Shown here one piece after another: positions 10,733 through 40,004 of a DNA stretch of 40,078 nucleotides. Every line of letters begins with the position of its first letter. Positions within the stretch are counted from its first letter, which is position 1. The stretch covers positions 1 through 40,078 of the forward strand of contig CAKKPE010000103.1 of NCBI GenBank assembly GCA_919901565.1. The letters are read 5' to 3'. The position numbers were made by a program, and so were the translations under genes. Under the pieces are notes generated by a model that searched no databases, was not told the origin of the DNA, and saw only the letters and a program-made list of their open reading frames with translations. The stretch is from a bacterium. Lineage in GTDB: Bacteria; CG2-30-53-67.

Positions 10733-11920
10733 CTAATTGCCGGCATGAACATCTATCAGGCGCTTGAATATCAGCGTATCGATTCTGTCGATTATCGACT
10801 TGAAGAGTCCTCCGTAGCTCTTGCGATCCGAGAACATCCTGGAACGCAGGGCCTTTATCTCACTGTCGGAGGTCTTTGAGAAGGTGATCGCCTCCCCTCG
10901 CTGGAGTACCTGCCTTTCAAGTTTGAGAAGCCTCCCCGCCTTTGATACAAAATCCCTCACGTCCTCTGCAAGACCACCGGTCTCATCATGATCCCCCCCA
11001 TAGAGCACAGCGAGTTCCCTGACCATCCTGAAAAGTGTGTAATATTCCCAACCCCTTATCCCCCTTCGCCACTGTATAAAGGGGCTCCTCTCGAACCAGA
11101 GGAAGTTCCGCTTCCCGAACTCGAATAGATCCTCCACAGCGTTATAAAGCGCTCCCGCAGGGGGAGTATCTTTGAGGACACGCGAGGCACCTAAGACAAG
11201 CCCGAGATGCTTCCAGAGGTTCCTGAGCGCCAGCTCCCCGTTTTCGTCGCCGGGAGTATCGAAGTGCAGAAGCGAAGCGAAAACTTTCCCTCTGCCATAG
11301 AGACCTTCGACCACAAGCGGGTCGCCCTCCATCCTTTCGGGATTCAGGTTTATGCCATAAGCCTTCTCAATGGTCTCCCATCCGCAGGACTTCATATCTC
11401 CGACGTTGAGGTCGGAACTGAAGGCATCGTCTGAAGCTTGCTCGAACGAGGCCAGGGTCCTCATTCCACCCCCGTCTATAACGAATTGGGAGGGCCACCA
11501 GATTGTGAACAAGGGCTCTTTCAAGCCCTCCCAGAGGGGATGGCCTTCTGTCTTTATCTGTATACGGCCTGAGAGGCTGGGTACCCTCTGCTTCAGAGGC
11601 TTTCTCCGTATGTCCAGAAGTCCGAGCCCCTCGGCTGTTGCAAGTCCGGCGCCACCGCATATCCCGATGTATGAGCCGCCGGAAGCTACAAATCTCCTTA
11701 TGCTTTCCGCCCCATCCCTGCCCAAGGCCCTCATTTTGTTAGAGGCCCATCCTCCGGGGACGAAGAGCGCCTTAAACTCATTAAGCCTTCCGGCCCTTAT
11801 TTCCTCGGAGCTGACAAGGGAAAACCCGGCCCCGAGACATCGCAGGCTCTTGTAGGATACCAGTGCCCAGAGAAAGGACTCGTCCCAGAAAAGCGCCGTA
11901 TCAGAATTCATATCAGCCAT
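10733..11920 (-). CDS. BPL_N-like (glutamine-amidotransferase-fold) protein in the cobalamin operon
   Basis: A 395-residue protein of unknown function. The first ~240 residues follow the BPL_N/COG4285 pattern, a class I amidotransferase-like fold: ALFVPGGWASNK, RRFVASGGSYIGICGGAGLA (nucleophile-elbow Cys in GICGG), GLGLLDI, GHPLWEG, and GRGKVFASLLHFDTPGD. Unlike true amidotransferases, it has no recognisable synthetase partner domain. The C-terminal ~150 residues are helical and basic, with no family I know. It starts 6 bases after the cbiP stop and ends 7 bases before cbiB, so it is firmly inside the operon. It could act on corrinoid side chains or be regulatory; this is speculation. Confidence 0.75.
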   Translation of the reverse strand: MADMNSDTALFWDESFLWALVSYKSLRCLGAGFSLVSSEEIRAGRLNEFKALFVPGGWASNKMRALGRDGAESIRRFVASGGSYIGICGGAGLATAEGLGLLDIRRKPLKQRVPSLSGRIQIKTEGHPLWEGLKEPLFTIWWPSQFVIDGGGMRTLASFEQASDDAFSSDLNVGDMKSCGWETIEKAYGINLNPERMEGDPLVVEGLYGRGKVFASLLHFDTPGDENGELALRNLWKHLGLVLGASRVLKDTPPAGALYNAVEDLFEFGKRNFLWFERSPFIQWRRGIRGWEYYTLFRMVRELAVLYGGDHDETGGLAEDVRDFVSKAGRLLKLERQVLQRGEAITFSKTSDSEIKALRSRMFSDRKSYGGLFKSIIDRIDTLIFKRLIDVHAGN

Positions 11921-16940: not shown

Positions 16941-18197
16941 TTATTTTTCCGCCGAGATGATGAACACGGGATTCTCCGCCTGCATCATGACCTTTCCCTT
17001 GAGGTCGTGCCCCCGGCCGATCTGGACCGAGACCACATCAAGAGAGAGTCCCCGTTTCTTCAGGAACGCCACGGTCTGGTGCAGGGTCTCCAGGGTCACG
17101 GCATTGACCACGATCCTCCCGCCTGGACCAAGCCTCCGGACCGCGTTCCTGAGGATCTCTTCCAGATGCCCGCCGCTTCCGCCGATGAAGACCCGGTCAG
17201 GATCGGCAAGCCCCTTGAGCACGGAAGGGGCCTCACCCCGGACGACTCGGATATTCCCGGACCCGAAGCGCAGGATATTCCGCTGAAGCCCGGAGATCCG
17301 CTTGGCCGACTTCTCCACGGCATAGACCGTAACCCCACGTGCGAGTCTCGCGGCCTCTATCGAGACCGAACCGGAGCCGGCGCCCACGTCCCAGAAGATG
17401 TTGCCCGGCCCGATCCTGAGCTTTCCAAGGGTCACGGCCCTGACCTCGGACCGGGTGATCATCCCCTTATCGTGGGCCAATACATGATCCGGGATCCCGA
17501 ATCCCTCTTCCCCGGCCCGGTCGTTCAGAACGATCATCACGTTCAGATCGGGAAACCGCTTCCCGGCCAGTGAAGAGAGGGTCCCCTGCCAGACCTTCTC
17601 ATCCGGTCCTCCCAACCGGCTACAGACATAGACCGTCGTGTCCGGAAGACCGGCTTTCAGCAGCTCTCTCGCAATACGAGACGGATGGTTCTTCGGGTCC
17701 GTGAGCACGGCCACCTTGGCGCGGCTCCTGACCGTATGAATCACCGAGAGGAGATCCCGTCCATGGGCCGAGGCAAAAGCCGCATCGTCCCAGGGGATCC
17801 GGACCCGTGCAAAGGCGAGCTGCATGGAGCTCACATGGGGATGGATCTCCATCTCTTCAGGCCGGAAAGACTTGAAAAGGAACCTCGCAATCCCGAAGAA
17901 ATTGGGATCGCCCGAAGTCAGCACCACCACCCTCTTCCCGAGTTTGACGGCATGACGGATCTTGCTGTCAAGCCCCTTGAGATGCCCATCCAGCGAAAAC
18001 CTCTGGCCGGTGAATCCCCTGAAACCCTGCAGGATCTTTGTCCCACCGACCAGCAGGTCCGCCTGTTGGATTTGATCCAGCACCTCGGGACACAGGCCCT
18101 CCGGTCCTTTGAGTCCTACACCCATTAATTGGATGGGACAAGGGCCATCCCCTGCTTTAAGCTTGCTTGGGCATGGTTTTAGATCAGAACCCTTCAC
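16941..18197 (-). CDS. cbiET: Precorrin-6Y (de)carboxylating methyltransferase, CbiE-CbiT fusion (CobL-like)
   Basis: A 418-residue fusion. The N-terminal CbiE half (about 22-225) has LMGVGLKGPEGLCPEV, VVLTSGDPNFFGIARFL and HPHVSSMQLAFAR, and methylates C5. The C-terminal CbiT half (about 235-418) has MITRSEVRAVTLGKL and the SAM site FWDVGAGSGSVSIEAA, and methylates C15 with decarboxylation of the C12 side chain. The start is GTG at 18197, overlapping the cbiD stop (GTGA); a later ATG at about codon 25 would just remove a short linker. Many anaerobes have two separate genes. Confidence 0.93.
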   Translation of the reverse strand: MKGSDLKPCPSKLKAGDGPCPIQLMGVGLKGPEGLCPEVLDQIQQADLLVGGTKILQGFRGFTGQRFSLDGHLKGLDSKIRHAVKLGKRVVVLTSGDPNFFGIARFLFKSFRPEEMEIHPHVSSMQLAFARVRIPWDDAAFASAHGRDLLSVIHTVRSRAKVAVLTDPKNHPSRIARELLKAGLPDTTVYVCSRLGGPDEKVWQGTLSSLAGKRFPDLNVMIVLNDRAGEEGFGIPDHVLAHDKGMITRSEVRAVTLGKLRIGPGNIFWDVGAGSGSVSIEAARLARGVTVYAVEKSAKRISGLQRNILRFGSGNIRVVRGEAPSVLKGLADPDRVFIGGSGGHLEEILRNAVRRLGPGGRIVVNAVTLETLHQTVAFLKKRGLSLDVVSVQIGRGHDLKGKVMMQAENPVFIISAEK

Positions 18198-19339
18198 CTC
18201 CCGCTCCCCTTTTCCCCTCCCATCAGAGGGGGATTTTGCGCCAGCACCTTCCCGTCGTATCCGATCAGCACGGTCCTTACCCTAACCTTGCCGCTCGAGA
18301 GGGATTCACAGCTCTCCCTGGCCCGACGGCAGATCTCATTATACAGAGGCGTATCTTCGGGCAGGATTTCCCATATCTCCCGGCTGGTGTTGGCATGAAT
18401 GACCCTCTGTACAGAACCTTCGTCCATCCCGAGGCCCACGGCCCAGGAACCCAGAACGTCAAATCTCAATTCCGAGGCCTTGTAGTGCGTGTCCTCATAC
18501 CCTATAGCGATCTTGGACATCTTGCCGGGCATGGCCACCACCGTCGCCTCGGAAACCCCCTGGTCTGAACACAGCCGAAGAGAGGCGCCCACAAAATCCC
18601 CCATCTGTACAAAGGCCTCCGAGGGAAGGCTCGGCAGGAGCGCCTCGGCCGCCTTCTCGCTGGACCGGCCCGGAGTCAGGACCACCGCTTGATTCCCGCA
18701 GGCCGCGGCCACTTGGATCTGCGCGGCAATGGTCTCTTCCCATGCCTTGTGGGAGAGGGGCTCCACGATCCCCGTGGTCCCCAGAATCGAGATCCCGCCC
18801 AGAATCCCCAGCCGGGGGTTCAGGGTCTTTTCAGCAAGGTTTTTGCCTTCCGGCACCTCAATGGTCACTTCAAACCGGACGCCCTGGATCTTCTTTGAGA
18901 AGTGCCTCAAGACCTGGGTCACTTCATTTGCGATCATGGACCTGGGCACCGGATTGATGGCCCATTCCCCGACCGCAACGGGGAGACCCGGCTTGGTCAC
19001 CCGGCCGACCCCTTCACCGCCCGCTATCGTGAGTTCATGTCCTTTCTGATCCGCTTCGCCCGGTGCTTTGCGGACCCGGGCCATGATCTCCGCACCGTGG
19101 GTCACGTCCGGATCGTCCCCCGCGTCCTTGACCACGGAACAGGAGGCCGTCAGGTCATCATACTTTAGGGTCTTAACCGGAAACACGACCGACCCTCCCG
19201 CGGGGAGATCAATCTCTATCCGGTAGACCGGTACCCCGGTCACCAAGACCAGTGCCGCGCTCTTGGCCGCGGCCGCGGCACAGGCGCCTGTGGTGTATCC
19301 TTTGCGGAGCGGCCTGTCCGAGACTTCATCATTTTTCAT
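18194..19339 (-). CDS. cbiD: Cobalt-precorrin-5B C1-methyltransferase (CbiD)
   Basis: A 381-residue SAM-dependent methyltransferase of a fold unlike the other methylases. Methylates C1 of cobalt-precorrin-5B. Recognised by RKGYTTGACAAAAAKSA near the N-terminus (12-28), KDAGDDPDVTHG, GEWAINPVPRSMI and ILGTTGIVEPLS. Its ATG overlaps the stop of the radical SAM gene cbpB (ATGA, 19336-19339), so its translation is tied to that gene. It overlaps cbiET by four bases. Confidence 0.95.
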   Translation of the reverse strand: MKNDEVSDRPLRKGYTTGACAAAAAKSAALVLVTGVPVYRIEIDLPAGGSVVFPVKTLKYDDLTASCSVVKDAGDDPDVTHGAEIMARVRKAPGEADQKGHELTIAGGEGVGRVTKPGLPVAVGEWAINPVPRSMIANEVTQVLRHFSKKIQGVRFEVTIEVPEGKNLAEKTLNPRLGILGGISILGTTGIVEPLSHKAWEETIAAQIQVAAACGNQAVVLTPGRSSEKAAEALLPSLPSEAFVQMGDFVGASLRLCSDQGVSEATVVAMPGKMSKIAIGYEDTHYKASELRFDVLGSWAVGLGMDEGSVQRVIHANTSREIWEILPEDTPLYNEICRRARESCESLSSGKVRVRTVLIGYDGKVLAQNPPLMGGEKGSGR

Positions 19340-20670
19340 TTATACTGATACTCATATTGCATATATGCCAATGAATCTTTACGCAAGAGATATTTAACTT
19401 TGTCTTCAGCAATCAATTTAAAGGCATGCCTTATGATCTCTTTATAAAAATCACAAAACTCCGCCTTTTTGTACATATTGCCGCGGGCGTACATTTCAGC
19501 CGGGCAGGGCGAGCCGCATATATGTCTGAAGTCGCAGGTATTACATTCTTCAATCTTTTCCACGGTCCTTGAACGTATTTCCTTAAAAGGTTTTGAGTTC
19601 ATGGCCTTTGAAATCGTCGTATCAAAGATATTCCCGCCTGAAAATTCCTTGGAACCGATAAATTCTCCGCAGGGAACCATTTCGCCGCCGGCAGTGATCG
19701 TGAGAAAGGTACGGCCGCCTCCGCATGGAGAAATATCACACATCATCCGTCTGGCAGACGGCGATATGATGGCGAGAATAACGTTGGAAAAGTTCCCCAC
19801 AACAATCTGCCGTCCGGATTTTATTGATAAATCCATTGCCGTATCAACAGCATCCATCAGATTTTCCGCAAATACCTTTTGATCAGGTTTCAGTTTCAAT
19901 GCGGGGATCCTCGTCACTCTTACCGGATTGAGAAGCACACAGGGGACCTTTTTCTTGTGAAGAAACCTCACGTGGTCGGAAAGTCTATGAACATTGAATT
20001 TAGTGACGGTTGAAATGACATTCAATCCCTCATAACCGTCAAACCAGTCTATGGCCTGCACCGCTTTCTCAAAGTTGCCGTTTCCTCTTGTCGTTGCCCG
20101 TGAAATGTTATTGATATCCGCTTCAGGGGCGTCAAGGGATATGCCGACGCCCATTCTGCGTTTTTTCATAAACTCAACATCCTCTTTTTCAAGAAGGAGA
20201 GCATTGGTCTGAATGCCGAAAAGAAGTTCTTTGTGGAACCTGTCTATTGCATTAAACAGGATTCCCTTTACCAGAAGCGGTTCTGCAGCATGGAAGACAA
20301 TGACCGGTTTTTTGGATGATGTCTTGAAATGCGCGGCAATCTTTGTCAACACGGCATCAAGCTCTTGTCCGGTCATCTGTGTGCCTTTTTTTCTTATCCT
20401 TGACGGGATGTAACAGTAAGGGCAGTTGGCATTGCATTTGTCGGTAGGGTCAATGTATATGCAATTTAATTCCGCATTGAATCTGAAATCATGAAGCTCC
20501 TTGTCAAGATGCTCTCTCTCCTTCTGATACAGAGTTATCAGGTCATCAGGCATCATGAAAGCACCATCAACCTTTTTCGGAACAACCCCCCAGAAGACAT
20601 TGTCGGCATCAAGGGCCAGCTTCCAGTCAGCATCAATGTCGGAAAAAGAGATGACGCGGTTGTTGTTCAT
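19336..20670 (-). CDS. cbpB: Radical SAM/SPASM peptide-modifying enzyme (CbpB-like)
   Basis: A 444-residue enzyme. The [4Fe-4S]-SAM motif is CX3CX2C: C79, C83 and C86 in DKCNANCPYC. A radical SAM barrel follows (FHAAEPLLVKG, GIQTNALLL, GVGISLDAPE). The C-terminal SPASM domain carries at least seven Cys (MCDISPCGGG, MVPCGEFIG, CNTCDFRHICGSPC, AEFC) for auxiliary clusters. SPASM enzymes typically alter side chains of a peptide made by a neighbour gene; the small peptide gene cbpA lies upstream. ATG 20670 is chosen for GGAAAGGA upstream and domain length; the frame runs open to 20775. Name follows my memory of the 'cobopeptide' family. Product unknown. Confidence 0.8.
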   Translation of the reverse strand: MNNNRVISFSDIDADWKLALDADNVFWGVVPKKVDGAFMMPDDLITLYQKEREHLDKELHDFRFNAELNCIYIDPTDKCNANCPYCYIPSRIRKKGTQMTGQELDAVLTKIAAHFKTSSKKPVIVFHAAEPLLVKGILFNAIDRFHKELLFGIQTNALLLEKEDVEFMKKRRMGVGISLDAPEADINNISRATTRGNGNFEKAVQAIDWFDGYEGLNVISTVTKFNVHRLSDHVRFLHKKKVPCVLLNPVRVTRIPALKLKPDQKVFAENLMDAVDTAMDLSIKSGRQIVVGNFSNVILAIISPSARRMMCDISPCGGGRTFLTITAGGEMVPCGEFIGSKEFSGGNIFDTTISKAMNSKPFKEIRSRTVEKIEECNTCDFRHICGSPCPAEMYARGNMYKKAEFCDFYKEIIRHAFKLIAEDKVKYLLRKDSLAYMQYEYQYK

Positions 20671-20761
20671 GCGTTTGAATTCCTTTCCTATAATAAATAG
20701 TTCAGGCAGCTTATTAATAGTCTCGAAATAGAATGAACATGGTTCATAAAATCTCCCCTTG

Positions 20762-20927
20762 CCCCTCTTTTCCAAAGAGGGGGAATTCCTCCCTTTGAAA
20801 AAGGGAGGTTAGAGCCTGCCCTCGAATGGGTTTATCGGGGGAGGGATTTTCGATATGATGTCGTTTCTATTACGAGAACCTTAATATCAACTTTGGCGGT
20901 TCAAGCGGTTTAACCCGCTTGAACCGC
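20762..20927. other. Three hairpins between cbpA and cbpB
   Basis: Perfect stems: 9 bp at 20762-20770/20774-20782 (3-base loop), 9 bp at 20788-20796/20800-20808 (3-base loop), and 13 bp at 20896-20908/20915-20927 (6-base loop). The last starts 12 bases after the cbpA stop on the minus strand. None is followed by a good U-run in that direction. They could stabilise the cbpA message, or cause partial termination so that much more peptide than enzyme is made. The two 9-bp stems resemble dispersed intergenic repeats. This is the only gap above 250 bases inside the operon. Confidence 0.7.
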
Positions 20928-20938
20928 TTAAACTTTTT

Positions 20939-21091
20939 CTACAGAGGCATCTTCTTTTTCGGCACATCGCCGTACATAACAAAATGAGTTAATCCATTGG
21001 CTGTCTTGGCGCACTTCAGGTGATAAGAGACAGCGCTTGGCTTTTTGCTGTGCCGGGTTTTTTTATTCTCGGATTTGATCTTTTTAGTCAT
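20939..21091 (-). CDS. cbpA: CbpA-like modified-peptide precursor in the cobalamin operon
   Basis: A 50-residue peptide. Lys-rich leader (MTKKIKSENKKTRHSKKP), then a tail with a single Cys (C27), aromatic residues Y23, F37 and Y40, an Asn-Gly (N32-G33), and a basic end (DVPKKKMPL). The ribosome binding site is AGAAAGGAGGTGA, a near-complete match to the 16S rRNA 3' end, 7 bases before the ATG and the strongest in the window. It lies 29 bases after cbiO and upstream of the radical SAM/SPASM gene, the usual order for a precursor and its maturase. Which residue is altered, and whether a core is cleaved off, is unknown. Confidence 0.78.
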   Translation of the reverse strand: MTKKIKSENKKTRHSKKPSAVSYHLKCAKTANGLTHFVMYGDVPKKKMPL

Positions 21092-21120
21092 ATCTTTTCA
21101 CCTCCTTTCTTATAAAATAT

Positions 21121-22020
21121 TTAAACTATTAATTTTGGATTTTGCATGACCTTTATGATCTCCCTTCGCGCCTCGCCGATGGTGAGCGGGATTTTCTCAA
21201 ACGGTAAAGTGTCCTCATGTTTGAGACGGTAAATCAGCTCGGCGATTTGAGGAAGCCTGAGCTTGACATTTGACATCTCCTCAGGCGCTGTAAATACGTC
21301 TTCAGGAATGCCGCCCCTTACCAGATAACCTTTGCTTAAAATATACAGCCTGTCAAGAAATAATGGAACGAGGTCGACGCTGTGGGTGGCCATGACCACG
21401 GTCACCCCCTGCTCCCTGTTGAGCCTCGTCAAGAGGATCATCATCTTGTATTCGCCCATGGGGTCCAGGCCTGCAGTCGGCTCATCGAGCAGCAGGACCT
21501 CATGCCCCATGGCCAGGAGCCCGGCGATGCAGATCCGCTTCTTCTGCCCGAAGCTCAGATTGTGGATCGACTTCTTTGCAAGTTCCTCCATATCCACGGC
21601 CTTCAGGGCGCTGTTTACGCGTCGGGCGACCTCGTCCTCGCCGAATCCCATGTTCAGGGGGCCGAAAGCCACGTCTTCAAATACCGTTGGCGCGAAGAGC
21701 TGGTCATCGGGGTTCTGGAACACGAGGCCGATCTTTTGGTAGATCTGCTTCGGAGAGAGTTTCCTGACGTCCGCTCCATCGAAAAAAACCATGCCTTGGT
21801 AATCCTTGATCAGCCCATCCATGACCTTGAGAAGCGTCGTCTTGCCGGATCCGTTCGATCCCAGGATGCCGATAAACTCGCCTCGTTTGACCTCAAGGCA
21901 AATATCGGACAGTGCCTCTGAGCCGTCAGGATATCGAAAAGAGTCTATCTTGACCGACAAGCGGATGTCAGCAGTCTGTACTCTGTCATCTATTCTCTGT
22001 TTTCTGCCTACATCTTCCAT
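21121..22020 (-). CDS. cbiO: Cobalt ECF transporter ATPase (CbiO)
   Basis: A 299-residue ABC ATPase powering cobalt uptake. Walker A GSNGSGKTT, Q-loop LVFQNPDDQLFAPTV (typical of ECF-type ATPases), signature LSFGQKKR, Walker B VLLLDEPTAGLD, and switch His in MATHS. The C-terminal ~60 residues extend past the core. Its start overlaps the end of cbiQ by 13 bases. A single ATPase gene suggests a homodimer in the complex. Confidence 0.94.
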   Translation of the reverse strand: MEDVGRKQRIDDRVQTADIRLSVKIDSFRYPDGSEALSDICLEVKRGEFIGILGSNGSGKTTLLKVMDGLIKDYQGMVFFDGADVRKLSPKQIYQKIGLVFQNPDDQLFAPTVFEDVAFGPLNMGFGEDEVARRVNSALKAVDMEELAKKSIHNLSFGQKKRICIAGLLAMGHEVLLLDEPTAGLDPMGEYKMMILLTRLNREQGVTVVMATHSVDLVPLFLDRLYILSKGYLVRGGIPEDVFTAPEEMSNVKLRLPQIAELIYRLKHEDTLPFEKIPLTIGEARREIIKVMQNPKLIV

Positions 22021-22760
22021 ACCACTCCCATGACCACAAGAAAGAGCGCGGACGCAACAACCTCGGATGACTTGAAGGGCTTGTGTCTGAGCATCGGCAT
22101 GGCGCCATCATACCCCCGCTGTACCATGGCCACGGTCGTGCTCTGGCTGTGATCAAAGGCCTTGATCGTCAGTGCCCCGGCTAGCGTCCCGAATGAGTTC
22201 AACCCGCGCCTCACCGTTGAATAGCCGAGACGGTTTTTCTGTGCCTGGTAGATGACCTGTGCGTCCTCAAAAAACACAAAAATATATCGGTAGGCAAACA
22301 TCAAAATCTCGATAAATCCTTTCGGCACCCTGAACCATGAAAGACCCGCCATGAACTCGGTGAACGGCGTGGCAAATCCCAGCACAGCGACCACGGATAC
22401 CGCGCCGATGATCCTGCTGACTATCAGGAGTCCTTCTATAAGTCCATCCGCATGACCGACGACCCTGAGACTCATGATATCCACAGAAAAGAGCGCATCT
22501 TCTCCGGAGTAAAAACATTTCAAAAAGAGCACGACAGCGGCGATGAACAGAGGCTCGGAAAACCTCAGGACAAGGGCCCGCAACGGTATCCGCATCATGA
22601 TGCAGAGAAAGAGGCAGAACAGAGTTACGAGCGAGGGGAAGGCGAACCCCCTATAGCTCAGAACCATGGCCAGAAGGACTAGGGCAACGAGGAGTTTAAC
22701 CCGCGCGTCGATCCGTGAAAGGACATGGTTTTTTTTGAAATGATCGGAGAATAATTCCAT
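22008..22760 (-). CDS. cbiQ: Cobalt ECF transporter transmembrane protein (CbiQ)
   Basis: A 250-residue membrane protein, the T component that couples CbiO to CbiM. Opens with DHFKKNHVLSRIDARVKLL, the CbiQ-type N-terminal segment. Several hydrophobic helices follow (LLVALVLLAMVLSY, ALVLRFSEPLFIAAVVLFL). The cytoplasmic coupling helices carry the A-R-G-like motifs (YSTVRRGLNS and MVQRGYDGAMP). Last membrane helix VVASALFLVVMGVVW. Sits 11 bases after cbiN. Confidence 0.93.
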   Translation of the reverse strand: MELFSDHFKKNHVLSRIDARVKLLVALVLLAMVLSYRGFAFPSLVTLFCLFLCIMMRIPLRALVLRFSEPLFIAAVVLFLKCFYSGEDALFSVDIMSLRVVGHADGLIEGLLIVSRIIGAVSVVAVLGFATPFTEFMAGLSWFRVPKGFIEILMFAYRYIFVFFEDAQVIYQAQKNRLGYSTVRRGLNSFGTLAGALTIKAFDHSQSTTVAMVQRGYDGAMPMLRHKPFKSSEVVASALFLVVMGVVWKM

Positions 22761-22771
22761 ATATCAGCTTC

Positions 22772-23098
22772 CTACTTTCCCTGGGAAAGAGACCCGCCGA
22801 TTTCTGTGTTCCGGTCTCTGCGTTCTGTCAGCACCCTCCAGTAATATCCTGCGGCGAATCCCCCAACCGTTCCTGCAAGAAGAAATACGAAAAGCAGGAG
22901 GTCTCCCTGGTCTGTGTTGATCAGCGGTTCCCTTGCTTCCCTGCCGTGCTCTTTTGCATATTTTTCGACGACCGATTCGTCGACACCGGGCCATTTCTCT
23001 TCGGCAAAAACAGCAGTGTATAGTGAACAGTGTATAGTGAACAGTAAAAAAATAATGGAGAAAATTTTAAATTTAAAATTTAAAATTTGTAATTTCAT
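22772..23098 (-). CDS. cbiN: CbiN-like small membrane component of the cobalt transporter
   Basis: A 108-residue protein with a hydrophobic N-terminus (IFSIIFLLFTIHCSLYTAVFA, cleavable signal or anchor), an extracytoplasmic loop (WPGVDESVVEKYAKEHG and PLINTDQGDL) and a second helix (LLLFVFLLAGTVGGFAAGYYW) ending in a basic tail. Topology and its place between cbiM and cbiQ match CbiN, which assists CbiM in metal loading. Sequence similarity to classical CbiN is low. The start overlaps the cbiM stop (ATGA). The signal segment is encoded by simple repeats: AAATTTAAAATTT-type runs and a tandem GTATAGTGAACA motif at about 23015-23045. Confidence 0.75.
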   Translation of the reverse strand: MKLQILNFKFKIFSIIFLLFTIHCSLYTAVFAEEKWPGVDESVVEKYAKEHGREAREPLINTDQGDLLLFVFLLAGTVGGFAAGYYWRVLTERRDRNTEIGGSLSQGK

Positions 23099-23838
23099 AA
23101 TGCCTCCTCTGGTTTTAATACCCGCATCTTCACCAGAAGATCAGGCCGTTTCTTATACAGCAGAACGACCATACCTGCCGTCATCGCCCCTTCCAGTATC
23201 CCCAGGGGAAGCTGCGTGGGGATGAAGGCAATGAGGAGCTTCCAGAAAAGCGGCATAAAAGGCGAGTCCCCTCGTATGCCCGAGGCAAGCTCGACTGAGG
23301 TGGCGAAATACGTCGCCCAGTCCGCGAGCAACCCCGCCATGAAACCAGCGATTGCCATATTGATTTTCATCGAGCGCAGCGCTCTGAATGTGAGATAGCC
23401 GGCAAAAGATCCAACCACGCCCATGGATACGATGTCCGCTCCCCAAGTACTCAATCCGCCGTGGGCAAGGAAAAGCGCCTGAATGAGGAGCGCCGCTGCG
23501 GTAATAAGAATGCTGATTCCAGGGCCGAGGAGTATGCCTGATATCCCTGTGCCGCAAGGATGAGAGCATGTGCCTGCAGTAGGCACCGGTATCGGCATGC
23601 AGGAGATGATAAAGACCACCGCCGCCATGAGACCGACGAGGGGCTTGAACGACAGGTCAACAGTTGATAGTTTCTTTAACCTGTATAATCCATAGGCCAC
23701 AAAAGGCGCTGCAACGACAAACCACAGTGCTGCCCACTTAAACGGCAGTATCCCCTCTGAAATATGCATAGCATAGGCAGGAGTCGTCGGAACGAACAGC
23801 ATCCACAACAAGATTATACCGGATTTACTCTCTTTCAT
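23095..23838 (-). CDS. cbiM: Cobalt ECF transporter substrate-binding membrane protein (CbiM)
   Basis: A 247-residue S component that binds Co(II). Residues 1-23 are a signal peptide ending AYA, whose removal exposes M24-H25-I-S-E-G. The free N-terminus and this His are known metal ligands in CbiM/NikM. A second His-containing loop, AGTCSHPCGTG, is also present. About six further hydrophobic segments. ATGA overlap with cbiC upstream and with cbiN downstream. Confidence 0.95.
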   Translation of the reverse strand: MKESKSGIILLWMLFVPTTPAYAMHISEGILPFKWAALWFVVAAPFVAYGLYRLKKLSTVDLSFKPLVGLMAAVVFIISCMPIPVPTAGTCSHPCGTGISGILLGPGISILITAAALLIQALFLAHGGLSTWGADIVSMGVVGSFAGYLTFRALRSMKINMAIAGFMAGLLADWATYFATSVELASGIRGDSPFMPLFWKLLIAFIPTQLPLGILEGAMTAGMVVLLYKKRPDLLVKMRVLKPEEAL

Positions 23839-29411: not shown

Positions 29412-29469
29412 TCTGAACGATCACGCATTCACCACCCTTGAGCCTCGAAGTCCGGTGAACATTTTTCCA

Positions 29470-29657
29470 TATCAGGCAGGTCTTCTGACTTACGGGCACC
29501 TCCAACATTCGGTTGGAGGAAGATCATCGCCCCTTCCCGTCTACCTGAAGCAGACAGTGGTTTTTGCGATGACATAACCCGATCACAGCGGCGGGTCCGT
29601 GAGGGATTCTCACCCTCTTCCCTTTCCAGGCCTTTCGGCACCTGAAATGTTCTATTT
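29470..29657 (-). promoter_or_regulatory. Cobalamin riboswitch (aptamer)
   Basis: Minus-strand sequence shows the conserved blocks in order. GGTGCCGAAAGGCCTGG and AAAGGGAA come first, then GGTGAGAATCC with the GCCGCTGTG segment. Next is the B12-box-like CCACTGTCTG, a variable stem (CCTCCAACCGAATGTTGGAGG), and the closing AAGTCAGAAGACCTGCC. This is the class I adenosylcobalamin aptamer. Transcription would be switched off by high B12. A TATAAA on the minus strand near 29681 could be its -10, but no good -35 is at the right distance. Confidence 0.93.
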
Positions 29658-29712
29658 TCAAGACAACCTACCACCGGCGTTTATATGAGTCAATCTTTTT
29701 TTCAAGACCCCC

Positions 29713-38477: not shown

Positions 38478-38987
38478 ATGACCCGACCATTGAGAATACA
38501 GTATCCCGGAGCGGTATATCATGTAACCTGCAGAGGGAATGAGAGGCGAAAGATATACCATGATGATACAGACAGAATAAAGTTTCTTGAAATCCTTGCG
38601 CAGACAAAAGGGATCTATACCGTCAAGATTCACGGTTACGTCCTCATGAGCAACCATTTTCACCTACTGACCGAGACACCCCTTGGGAACCTCGGTGAAT
38701 TCATGAGACGGCTGAACGTGACCTATACGAGCTATTATAATCGAAGGCACGGCCGAGTCGGACATCTGTACCAGGGGAGATACAAGAGCCTTTTGGCAGA
38801 CAAGGATGAGTATGTGTCGGTTTTGTCCAGATATATCCACCTGAATCCGGTCAGGATACGGGCTTTCAAAGGGAAGCCGGATAAAGAGAAGGTTAAGGCC
38901 CTGCTGGGGTATAAATGGAGCAGCCTTCCGGGTTTTATAGATAAAGAAAGATATCTGGGATATCTGGGGTCAAATCTTTATACTTGA
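38478..38987 (+). pseudogene. Truncated REP-associated Y1 transposase (duplicate copy)
   Basis: 169 codons. The first 156 are identical to the full transposase at 39024, then the frame runs into the duplicated promoter region and stops after ERYLGYLGSNLYT. It retains the HUH motif (SNHFHLL, about residues 57-63) and the RYIHLNPVR segment but lacks the C-terminal DNA-binding half. Probably inactive as a transposase on its own. Confidence 0.85.
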
Positions 38988-39023
38988 CAAACAGATCTTG
39001 TTTGCGTTATAAGATTCATCACG

Positions 39024-40004
39024 ATGACCCGACCATTGAGAATACAGTATCCCGGAGCGGTATATCATGTAACCTGCAGAGGGAATGAGAGGCGAAAGAT
39101 ATACCATGATGATACAGACAGAATAAAGTTTCTTGAAATCCTTGCGCAGACAAAAGGGATCTATACCGTCAAGATTCACGGTTACGTCCTCATGAGCAAC
39201 CATTTTCACCTACTGACCGAGACACCCCTTGGGAACCTCGGTGAATTCATGAGACGGCTGAACGTGACCTATACGAGCTATTATAATCGAAGGCACGGCC
39301 GAGTCGGACATCTGTACCAGGGGAGATACAAGAGCCTTTTGGCAGACAAGGATGAGTATGTGTCGGTTTTGTCCAGATATATCCACCTGAATCCGGTCAG
39401 GATACGGGCTTTCAAAGGGAAGCCGGATAAAGAGAAGGTTAAGGCCCTGCTGGGGTATAAATGGAGCAGCCTTCCGGGTTTTATAGATAAGGGGAAGGCA
39501 GAGGATCTTGTGGATTATGATCTGGTCCTTGCAGAGCATGGAGGAGACAACCTCCGGGGGAGGCGGTCATACAAGGATAGGATTTTGGAAGATCTGGTTG
39601 AAGGGATTGGTATCCGGGACGAGATCATCGGACAGAGTGTATTGGGCGGAGAGCGTTTTGTTTCCTGGCTGAAGGACCAGGTTTTGAGCGGCAAGAAGGA
39701 TCGGGAGCGTCCCTCGTTGCAGGCATTGAATCGGTATTGCACAGAGGATGTGATCCTCGGTGCTATTGAAAAGGCGACCGGTAAAGAGATTGAGCAGATC
39801 AAATCTGAGAGGGGTCTGGTCCGGCAGATCGCCATGGATCTCTTATATAGGATCGGCGGCCTTAAGGGTGTGGAAATCGGCAGACTCCTGGGGGTTGATT
39901 ACAGTACAGTGAGTCAAGGGAGAAAACGGTTGATGGAAAGGATTCAGAGGGACCCTAAGACGAAGGCGTTGATTGGCCGTTTGGAGAAGGAGTTGTCAAG
40001 ATGA
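39024..40004 (+). CDS. REP-associated Y1 transposase (RAYT, IS200/IS605-like)
   Basis: A 326-residue protein. N-terminal Y1 transposase domain: RIQYPGAVYHVTCRGNERR, the metal-binding HUH motif in MSNHFHLL, GHLYQGRYKSLL and YIHLNPVR. The C-terminal ~100 residues form a DnaA domain IV-like helix-turn-helix (GLKGVEIGRLLGVDYSTVSQGRKRL), usual in the longer RAYT branch. Such proteins move or process REP palindromes by single-strand cutting. It appears intact. Confidence 0.92.
   Translation: MTRPLRIQYPGAVYHVTCRGNERRKIYHDDTDRIKFLEILAQTKGIYTVKIHGYVLMSNHFHLLTETPLGNLGEFMRRLNVTYTSYYNRRHGRVGHLYQGRYKSLLADKDEYVSVLSRYIHLNPVRIRAFKGKPDKEKVKALLGYKWSSLPGFIDKGKAEDLVDYDLVLAEHGGDNLRGRRSYKDRILEDLVEGIGIRDEIIGQSVLGGERFVSWLKDQVLSGKKDRERPSLQALNRYCTEDVILGAIEKATGKEIEQIKSERGLVRQIAMDLLYRIGGLKGVEIGRLLGVDYSTVSQGRKRLMERIQRDPKTKALIGRLEKELSR

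Follow-up and report, generated by a model that had tools for sequence, protein, structure and literature searches.

A small peptide gene and a radical SAM enzyme gene, cbpA and cbpB, sit in the middle of a bacterial vitamin B12 operon, and the question raised by this locus is what such a pair contributes to B12 metabolism. The window, i.e. the whole stretch of 40,078 nucleotides that was analysed, carries on its minus strand a run of B12 genes, named through family models or by position: cobS-, cobC- and cbiA-like genes, cbiX, cbiC, cbiM, cbiN, cbiQ and cbiO are followed by cbpA, cbpB, cbiD, cbiET, cbiL, cbiF, cbiG, cbiH and cbiP, and then by an unnamed gene, cbiB and cobD. A cobalamin riboswitch lies on the same strand, upstream of the whole run. 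As argued below, the product of cbpAB is probably a modified peptide, so far undescribed, that aids the handling of B12 under scarcity. The features concerned, in window coordinates, are:

29458 to 29660, minus strand: cobalamin riboswitch (Rfam RF00174), complete (1-189/189), 99.6 bits against a gathering threshold of 31.5
22008 to 23838, minus strand: cbiM, cbiN and cbiQ, cobalt ECF transporter genes directly upstream of cbiO; CbiM and CbiQ by NCBIfam
21121 to 22020, minus strand: cbiO, transporter ATPase (TIGR01166 cbiO, 224 bits, cut-off 211.8)
21101 to 21106, minus strand: Shine-Dalgarno sequence AGGAGG of cbpA, read directly from the sequence, 9 bases 5' of the ATG
20939 to 21091, minus strand: cbpA, candidate precursor peptide of 50 aa (homologues directly upstream of cbpB, alignment, codon test)
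20896 to 20927, minus strand: 13-bp stem-loop, 11 bases past the cbpA stop
19336 to 20670, minus strand: cbpB, radical SAM/SPASM enzyme of 444 aa (TIGR04163, 495 bits, cut-off 375; Pfam Radical_SAM and SPASM)
18194 to 19339, minus strand: cbiD (TIGR00312, 414 bits)

The cbiN call rests on position and size, with no model match, and among the operon genes as named by model or position no cbiJ/cobK was recognised. The run also includes a 395-aa protein (10733-11920, minus strand), GATase_3-like with a weak Pfam BPL_N match and without an NCBIfam model, which recurs as the closing gene of many Nitrospirota B12 operons. On the plus strand, two ORFs at 38478-40004 are identical over their first 60 residues (MTRPLRIQYPGAVYHVTCRGNERRKIY...) and presumably resemble REP-associated transposases. 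Palindromic CCCCTCTTTTCC/GGAAAAGAGGGG-like repeats are found between cbpA and cbpB (20757-20810) and near the start of cbiET (~18200-18240).

The larger gene of the pair was described in the initial annotation as encoding a radical SAM/SPASM enzyme with a CX3CX2C motif and a set of SPASM cysteines, its stop overlapping cbiD, and all of this was borne out, the overlap with the cbiD start being 4 bases. The ORF is listed from a TTG (19336-20775, minus strand); since homologue alignments begin at the ATG at 20670, this is most likely the true start, with AGGAAAGG upstream of it. The TIGR04163 score is far ahead of that of every other model, the Pfam matches are PF04055 and PF13186, and the score against the PapB model (111 bits) lies below its cut-off of 340. 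The CX3CX2C motif is formed by C79, C83 and C86, and eight cysteines (C311, C316, C334, C376, C379, C385, C389 and C406) make up the SPASM set; in a 42-sequence alignment each of these cluster residues is present in all 41-42 alignable homologues. The AlphaFold model (pLDDT 88.6), which as regards a RiPP recognition element has three strands and a long helix ahead of the radical SAM domain, finds its best PDB neighbour in CteB (5WGG/5WHY, TM 0.70), followed by anSMEcpe, ChlB, TigE and SuiB. As modelled, CbpB resembles peptide-modifying SPASM enzymes. Auxiliary cluster I has an open site in CteB and is fully ligated in anSME (PMC6231123); the extra invariant C311 suggests that CbpB may share the fully ligated state of anSME, unlike CteB.

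The smaller gene was initially noted as a tiny Lys-rich ORF with a near-perfect ribosome binding site, 29 bases after cbiO, and a closer reading agrees: it starts with ATG 29 bases past the cbiO stop (21121) and has 50 codons, of which 12 encode Lys. The picture of a close pair held as regards gene order, cbpA preceding cbpB; the two genes do not abut, being separated by 268 bases. The cbpA product is MTKKIKSENKKTRHSKKPSAVSYHLKCAKTANGLTHFVMYGDVPKKKMPL, with the core SYHLKCAKTANGLTHFVMYGDVPKKKMPL. Alignment of homologues, which had been suggested as a way to find invariant core residues, did yield them: C27, G33, L34 and H36 (window numbering) are invariant, as taken from the alignment and not selected by pattern, within the motif C-x3-[GA]-x-G-L-[ST]-H-[FY]. 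Comparison of the core codons with those of 50 homologues gave 680 identical codons, 686 with synonymous and 133 with non-synonymous differences, the excess of synonymous over non-synonymous changes indicating selection on CbpA at the protein level. In the branch to which the window belongs, the conserved core reaches the C-terminus (YGDVPKKKMPL), and in Nitrospirota almost 30 residues are conserved as far as that end. The residue four positions after the Cys is Gly or Ala, so that the ranthipeptide Cys-x3-Asp/Glu motif is absent. Taken alone, CbpA is predicted by AlphaFold to be unfolded (pLDDT 59.9), as would be expected of a precursor.

An invariant single Cys and an invariant His in a peptide encoded beside a SPASM enzyme suggest a radical modification of the core. 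That CbpA is modified at all is something that we infer, which leaves room for CbpA being a small accessory subunit of CbpB instead of its substrate, with CbpB acting on another molecule, e.g. a corrinoid. This would agree with the cysteines of CbpB, which suffice for both auxiliary clusters, as in anSME and unlike in CteB (PMC6231123), but a substrate is the better match for the invariant C, G, L and H of the core and for a CbpA that is predicted to be disordered.

The region behind cbpA bears on the same point. The first 70 bases past the cbpA stop fold far more stably than shuffled sequence, with a median z of -4.05 across 68 loci, whereas the same test gave medians of -0.22 to 0.18 behind cbiO, cbpB, cbiD, cbiC, cbiM and cbiF. 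Hairpins recur at this place in most bacterial loci. Their sequences are not related from one genome to the next, and several resemble dispersed repeats; the archaeal loci are mostly without one. The simplest reading is that the hairpin probably allows more precursor than enzyme to be made. Production of CbpA in excess, as the hairpin suggests, speaks against the accessory role, which is the least probable of the readings considered here, and the modification of CbpA by CbpB is retained as the working interpretation.

Whether this pair is a peculiarity of one genome was addressed by a scan of public genomes. It found CbpB relatives at 64 loci, the last three of them only distant. The initial annotation would have been undermined had CbpA homologues not been kept beside the enzyme; one immediately precedes cbpB at each related locus that is not cut there by a contig end. 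Pairs were recorded in Nitrospirota, Nitrospinota, Omnitrophota, planctomycetes and archaea, and the TIGR04163 cut-off is exceeded in Nitrospirota, Omnitrophota, Planctomycetota and archaea. The proposed assignment of both proteins to the NCBIfam families for CbpA and CbpB succeeded directly for the enzyme; the window peptide matches no NCBIfam or Pfam model, TIGR04164 (cut-off 35 bits) included. At that cut-off TIGR04164 also misses the tested Nitrospirota and Omnitrophota peptides, the scores of relatives being 47.4 for a planctomycete, 32.1 for an archaeal and 12.8 for an Omnitrophota sequence. Since planctomycete members of the same family do match the model, the window peptide can be regarded as a divergent CbpA, and in the broad sense, i.e. 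a gene beside cbpB whose product carries the core motif, it is a CbpA-type peptide. The common core and the planctomycete matches favour a single CbpA family, which on sequence grounds is better supported than two unrelated peptides.

The link to B12 that had been proposed for the pair was recovered in three ways: from the order of genes, from riboswitches and from co-occurrence. Within 6 kb of cbpB, same-strand genes specific to B12 were present at 47 of 53 Nitrospirota and other loci, 18 of 19 Omnitrophota loci and 2 of 5 planctomycete loci, and at none of 11 archaeal loci. The gene before the pair varies by genome (cbiO, cobD, cbiB, cobS, cbiX, cbiC or cbiH), and so does the gene after it (cbiD, cobA, cbiA, cbiX, cbiP, btuF or a TonB-dependent receptor gene). 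In six loci (L078, L133, L136, L137, L162 and L170) a cobalamin riboswitch is followed directly by cbpA, and at four of these (L078, L133, L136 and L162) the surrounding 6 kb contain no further B12 gene; the connection with B12 control thus concerns the pair itself and not just the operon. Lying in B12 operons or behind cobalamin riboswitches, cbpAB belongs to the B12 regulon, and its recognition as a two-gene module of that regulon in Nitrospirota, Omnitrophota and Planctomycetota is new here. The archaeal copies and two planctomycete loci (L083 and L084) have neither a B12 gene nor a riboswitch nearby. Additional cobalamin riboswitches were seen just after cbpB (L045, L047 and L049) and, in L088, ahead of a gene for a TonB-dependent receptor that lies upstream of cbpA.

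Co-occurrence was scored in draft genomes from the best few candidates per genome, with shared ancestry ignored. Among 285 Omnitrophota genomes, cobQ was found in 18/26 with CbpB and 36/259 without it (p 3.6e-9, kinship ignored). One archaeal phylum (23 genomes), in which cbpAB is not adjacent to B12 genes, has CbpB only in genomes with cbiD, the latter being present in 11/11 CbpB-positive and 4/12 CbpB-negative genomes (p 0.0013, kinship likewise ignored). In the Nitrospirota set of 246 genomes, cbiD occurs in 13 of the 19 with CbpB and 81 of the 227 without it (drafts, kinship again ignored). CbpB is thus present in 19 of these genomes against 94 for cbiD, and two members of the window's own family (G004 and G005) have cbiD and no CbpB. 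As the majority of B12 producers in these phyla do without it, cbpAB is an accessory element.

Six CbpB-positive genomes of the Nitrospirota set are without cbiD. In G008 the cbiD place is taken by a gene for a CobF-like methylase, and G133 and G151 have the same gene layout; G261 and G177 have cobQ (split in G177) although they are without cbiD. Neither cbiD nor cobQ was detected in G226, the sole such case of the six, and cobQ was not detected in G011. A CobF-like tetrapyrrole methylase gene was seen at the cbiD position in L028 (9841-10608), and likely in L034, L036 and L038; this arrangement is a mix of both B12 routes.

The eight CbpB-positive Omnitrophota genomes without detected cobQ point beyond synthesis. 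In six of them (loci L163-L166, L168 and L169) cbpAB is clustered with cobS and/or btuF, btuC and btuD, in L167 it has cobS beside it, and in L162 the riboswitch and cbpAB stand alone. In several salvage clusters (L135, L163, L164, L166 and L169) cbpA is preceded by a gene with an asparagine-synthase domain and cbpB is, in most cases, followed by a Diphthami_syn_2 (Dph6-like) gene; in L166 no stop separates the upstream frame from CbpA, owing either to a gene fusion or to faulty assembly.

These contexts bear on how the pair relates to cobalt. A tight link to cbiMNQO alone was dismissed, since cobS, cobD, cbiB, btuF, cbiX and other B12 genes are neighbours of the pair too, and the co-occurrence specifically with the transporter that the initial annotation had suggested testing gave way to a link with B12 genes in general. 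The same annotation had thought of a cobaltophore; in such a role, or as a metallochaperone for cobalt, the mature peptide would bind free Co(II) and supply CbiMNQO, CbiX or CbiK. The frequent adjacency of cbiMNQO, and sometimes of cbiX, speaks for this, as do the invariant Cys and His and the TonB-dependent receptors that neighbour the pair at L085, L049 and L088, two of these receptors being closest to the BtuB model. It is weakened by the salvage clusters of genomes without detected cobQ, in which the ring to be salvaged already contains its cobalt and a role in cobalt uptake alone is unlikely, by the absence of a recurring exporter or protease, and by archaeal and riboswitch-only copies with no cobalt transporter nearby, so that the proposal now seems unlikely.

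No fixed third gene, leader protease or exporter recurs among the neighbours of cbpAB in the loci surveyed. An antibiotic role was rejected, there being no immunity gene and no exporter, with riboswitch control instead. The lack of a recurring exporter or protease favours a product that stays within the cell. A modified peptide that reports the corrinoid state to another protein would agree with a small, B12-regulated module of two genes, but neither a receptor nor a transcription factor is conserved as a neighbour and B12 sensing is already supplied by the riboswitches, which makes a regulator or signal very unlikely.

Our tentative preference is for cbpAB as a RiPP-type module of the B12 regulon, in which CbpB modifies CbpA and the intracellular product handles a corrinoid. 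When B12 is scarce, the riboswitch would permit read-out of the operon, and the hairpin after cbpA would probably raise the small precursor above the level of the enzyme. CbpB would bind the Lys-rich N-terminal part of CbpA, and its 5'-deoxyadenosyl radical would introduce a crosslink or a similar change into the core motif. The modified CbpA would remain in the cell and bind cobinamide or a cobamide, possibly with the invariant His or Cys near the cobalt, and would carry, protect or present the corrinoid on its way from uptake or synthesis through adenosylation to nucleotide-loop assembly. Such a peptide is consistent at once with the occurrence in synthesis, with that in salvage and with riboswitch control. 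The more specific proposal of a dedicated, radical-SAM-made intracellular corrinoid-binding factor, giving cobalt an axial ligand or a redox group in both salvage and synthesis, is possible but doubtful.

The main rival to corrinoid handling is a peptide-derived cofactor or lower-ligand precursor, for which modified CbpA would be the scaffold: the small molecule excised from it could be a redox cofactor reducing cobalt before adenosylation, or a precursor of the lower ligand. SPASM enzymes of this type are known to yield peptide-derived cofactors, PQQ and mycofactocin being cut from peptide scaffolds, and cbpAB often lies beside cobA or among cobS and other nucleotide-loop genes. Yet neither a protease nor a partner enzyme recurs with the pair, and the almost 30 residues conserved to the C-terminus in Nitrospirota exceed what a residue donor needs; we consider this scaffold role rather unlikely. 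If corrinoid handling is correct, the B12 metabolism of bacteria and archaea from groundwater and the subsurface, which are represented mainly by draft genomes, would include a modified peptide as an unexpected component, and a corrinoid-binding factor would add a new function to those of RiPPs and a step to B12 metabolism that is so far unlisted.

In relation to known systems, CbpA and CbpB are already named in NCBIfam (TIGR04164, cobo_pep, and TIGR04163). The initial annotation knew of no described product, and likewise none, nor any function, was found in the open literature searched (cobopeptide, CbpB with cobalamin, and TIGR04163 included). The window enzyme exceeds its cut-off and the core motif is shared with planctomycete CbpA, while the peptide is a divergent variant missed by the peptide model, with a core extending to the C-terminus; the CbpA family now includes sequences beyond the reach of that model. 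Membership of the B12 regulon across phyla, in synthesis as well as salvage, turns an occurrence near cobalamin genes into a testable function. CteB, the SCIFF maturase, offers the closest solved fold, and it and PapB-type ranthipeptide maturases are among the next best NCBIfam models for CbpB; their peptides have repeated Cys motifs, whereas CbpA has one core Cys, and the open auxiliary cluster I site of CteB (PMC6231123) contrasts with the invariant C311 and possibly full ligation of CbpB. Metal-binding RiPPs such as methanobactin and bufferins share the proposed tie of a ribosomal peptide to a metal but, as far as PMC12452194 describes them, are products of MNIO and not of radical SAM enzymes, and bind copper, not cobalt or a corrinoid. 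The systems of PQQ (PqqA/PqqE) and mycofactocin (MftA/MftC) are alike in combining a small precursor with a SPASM enzyme in the service of cofactor metabolism and not of antibiosis; cbpAB differs from them in having no recurring protease, oxidase or PqqD-like protein and in being placed under B12 riboswitches.
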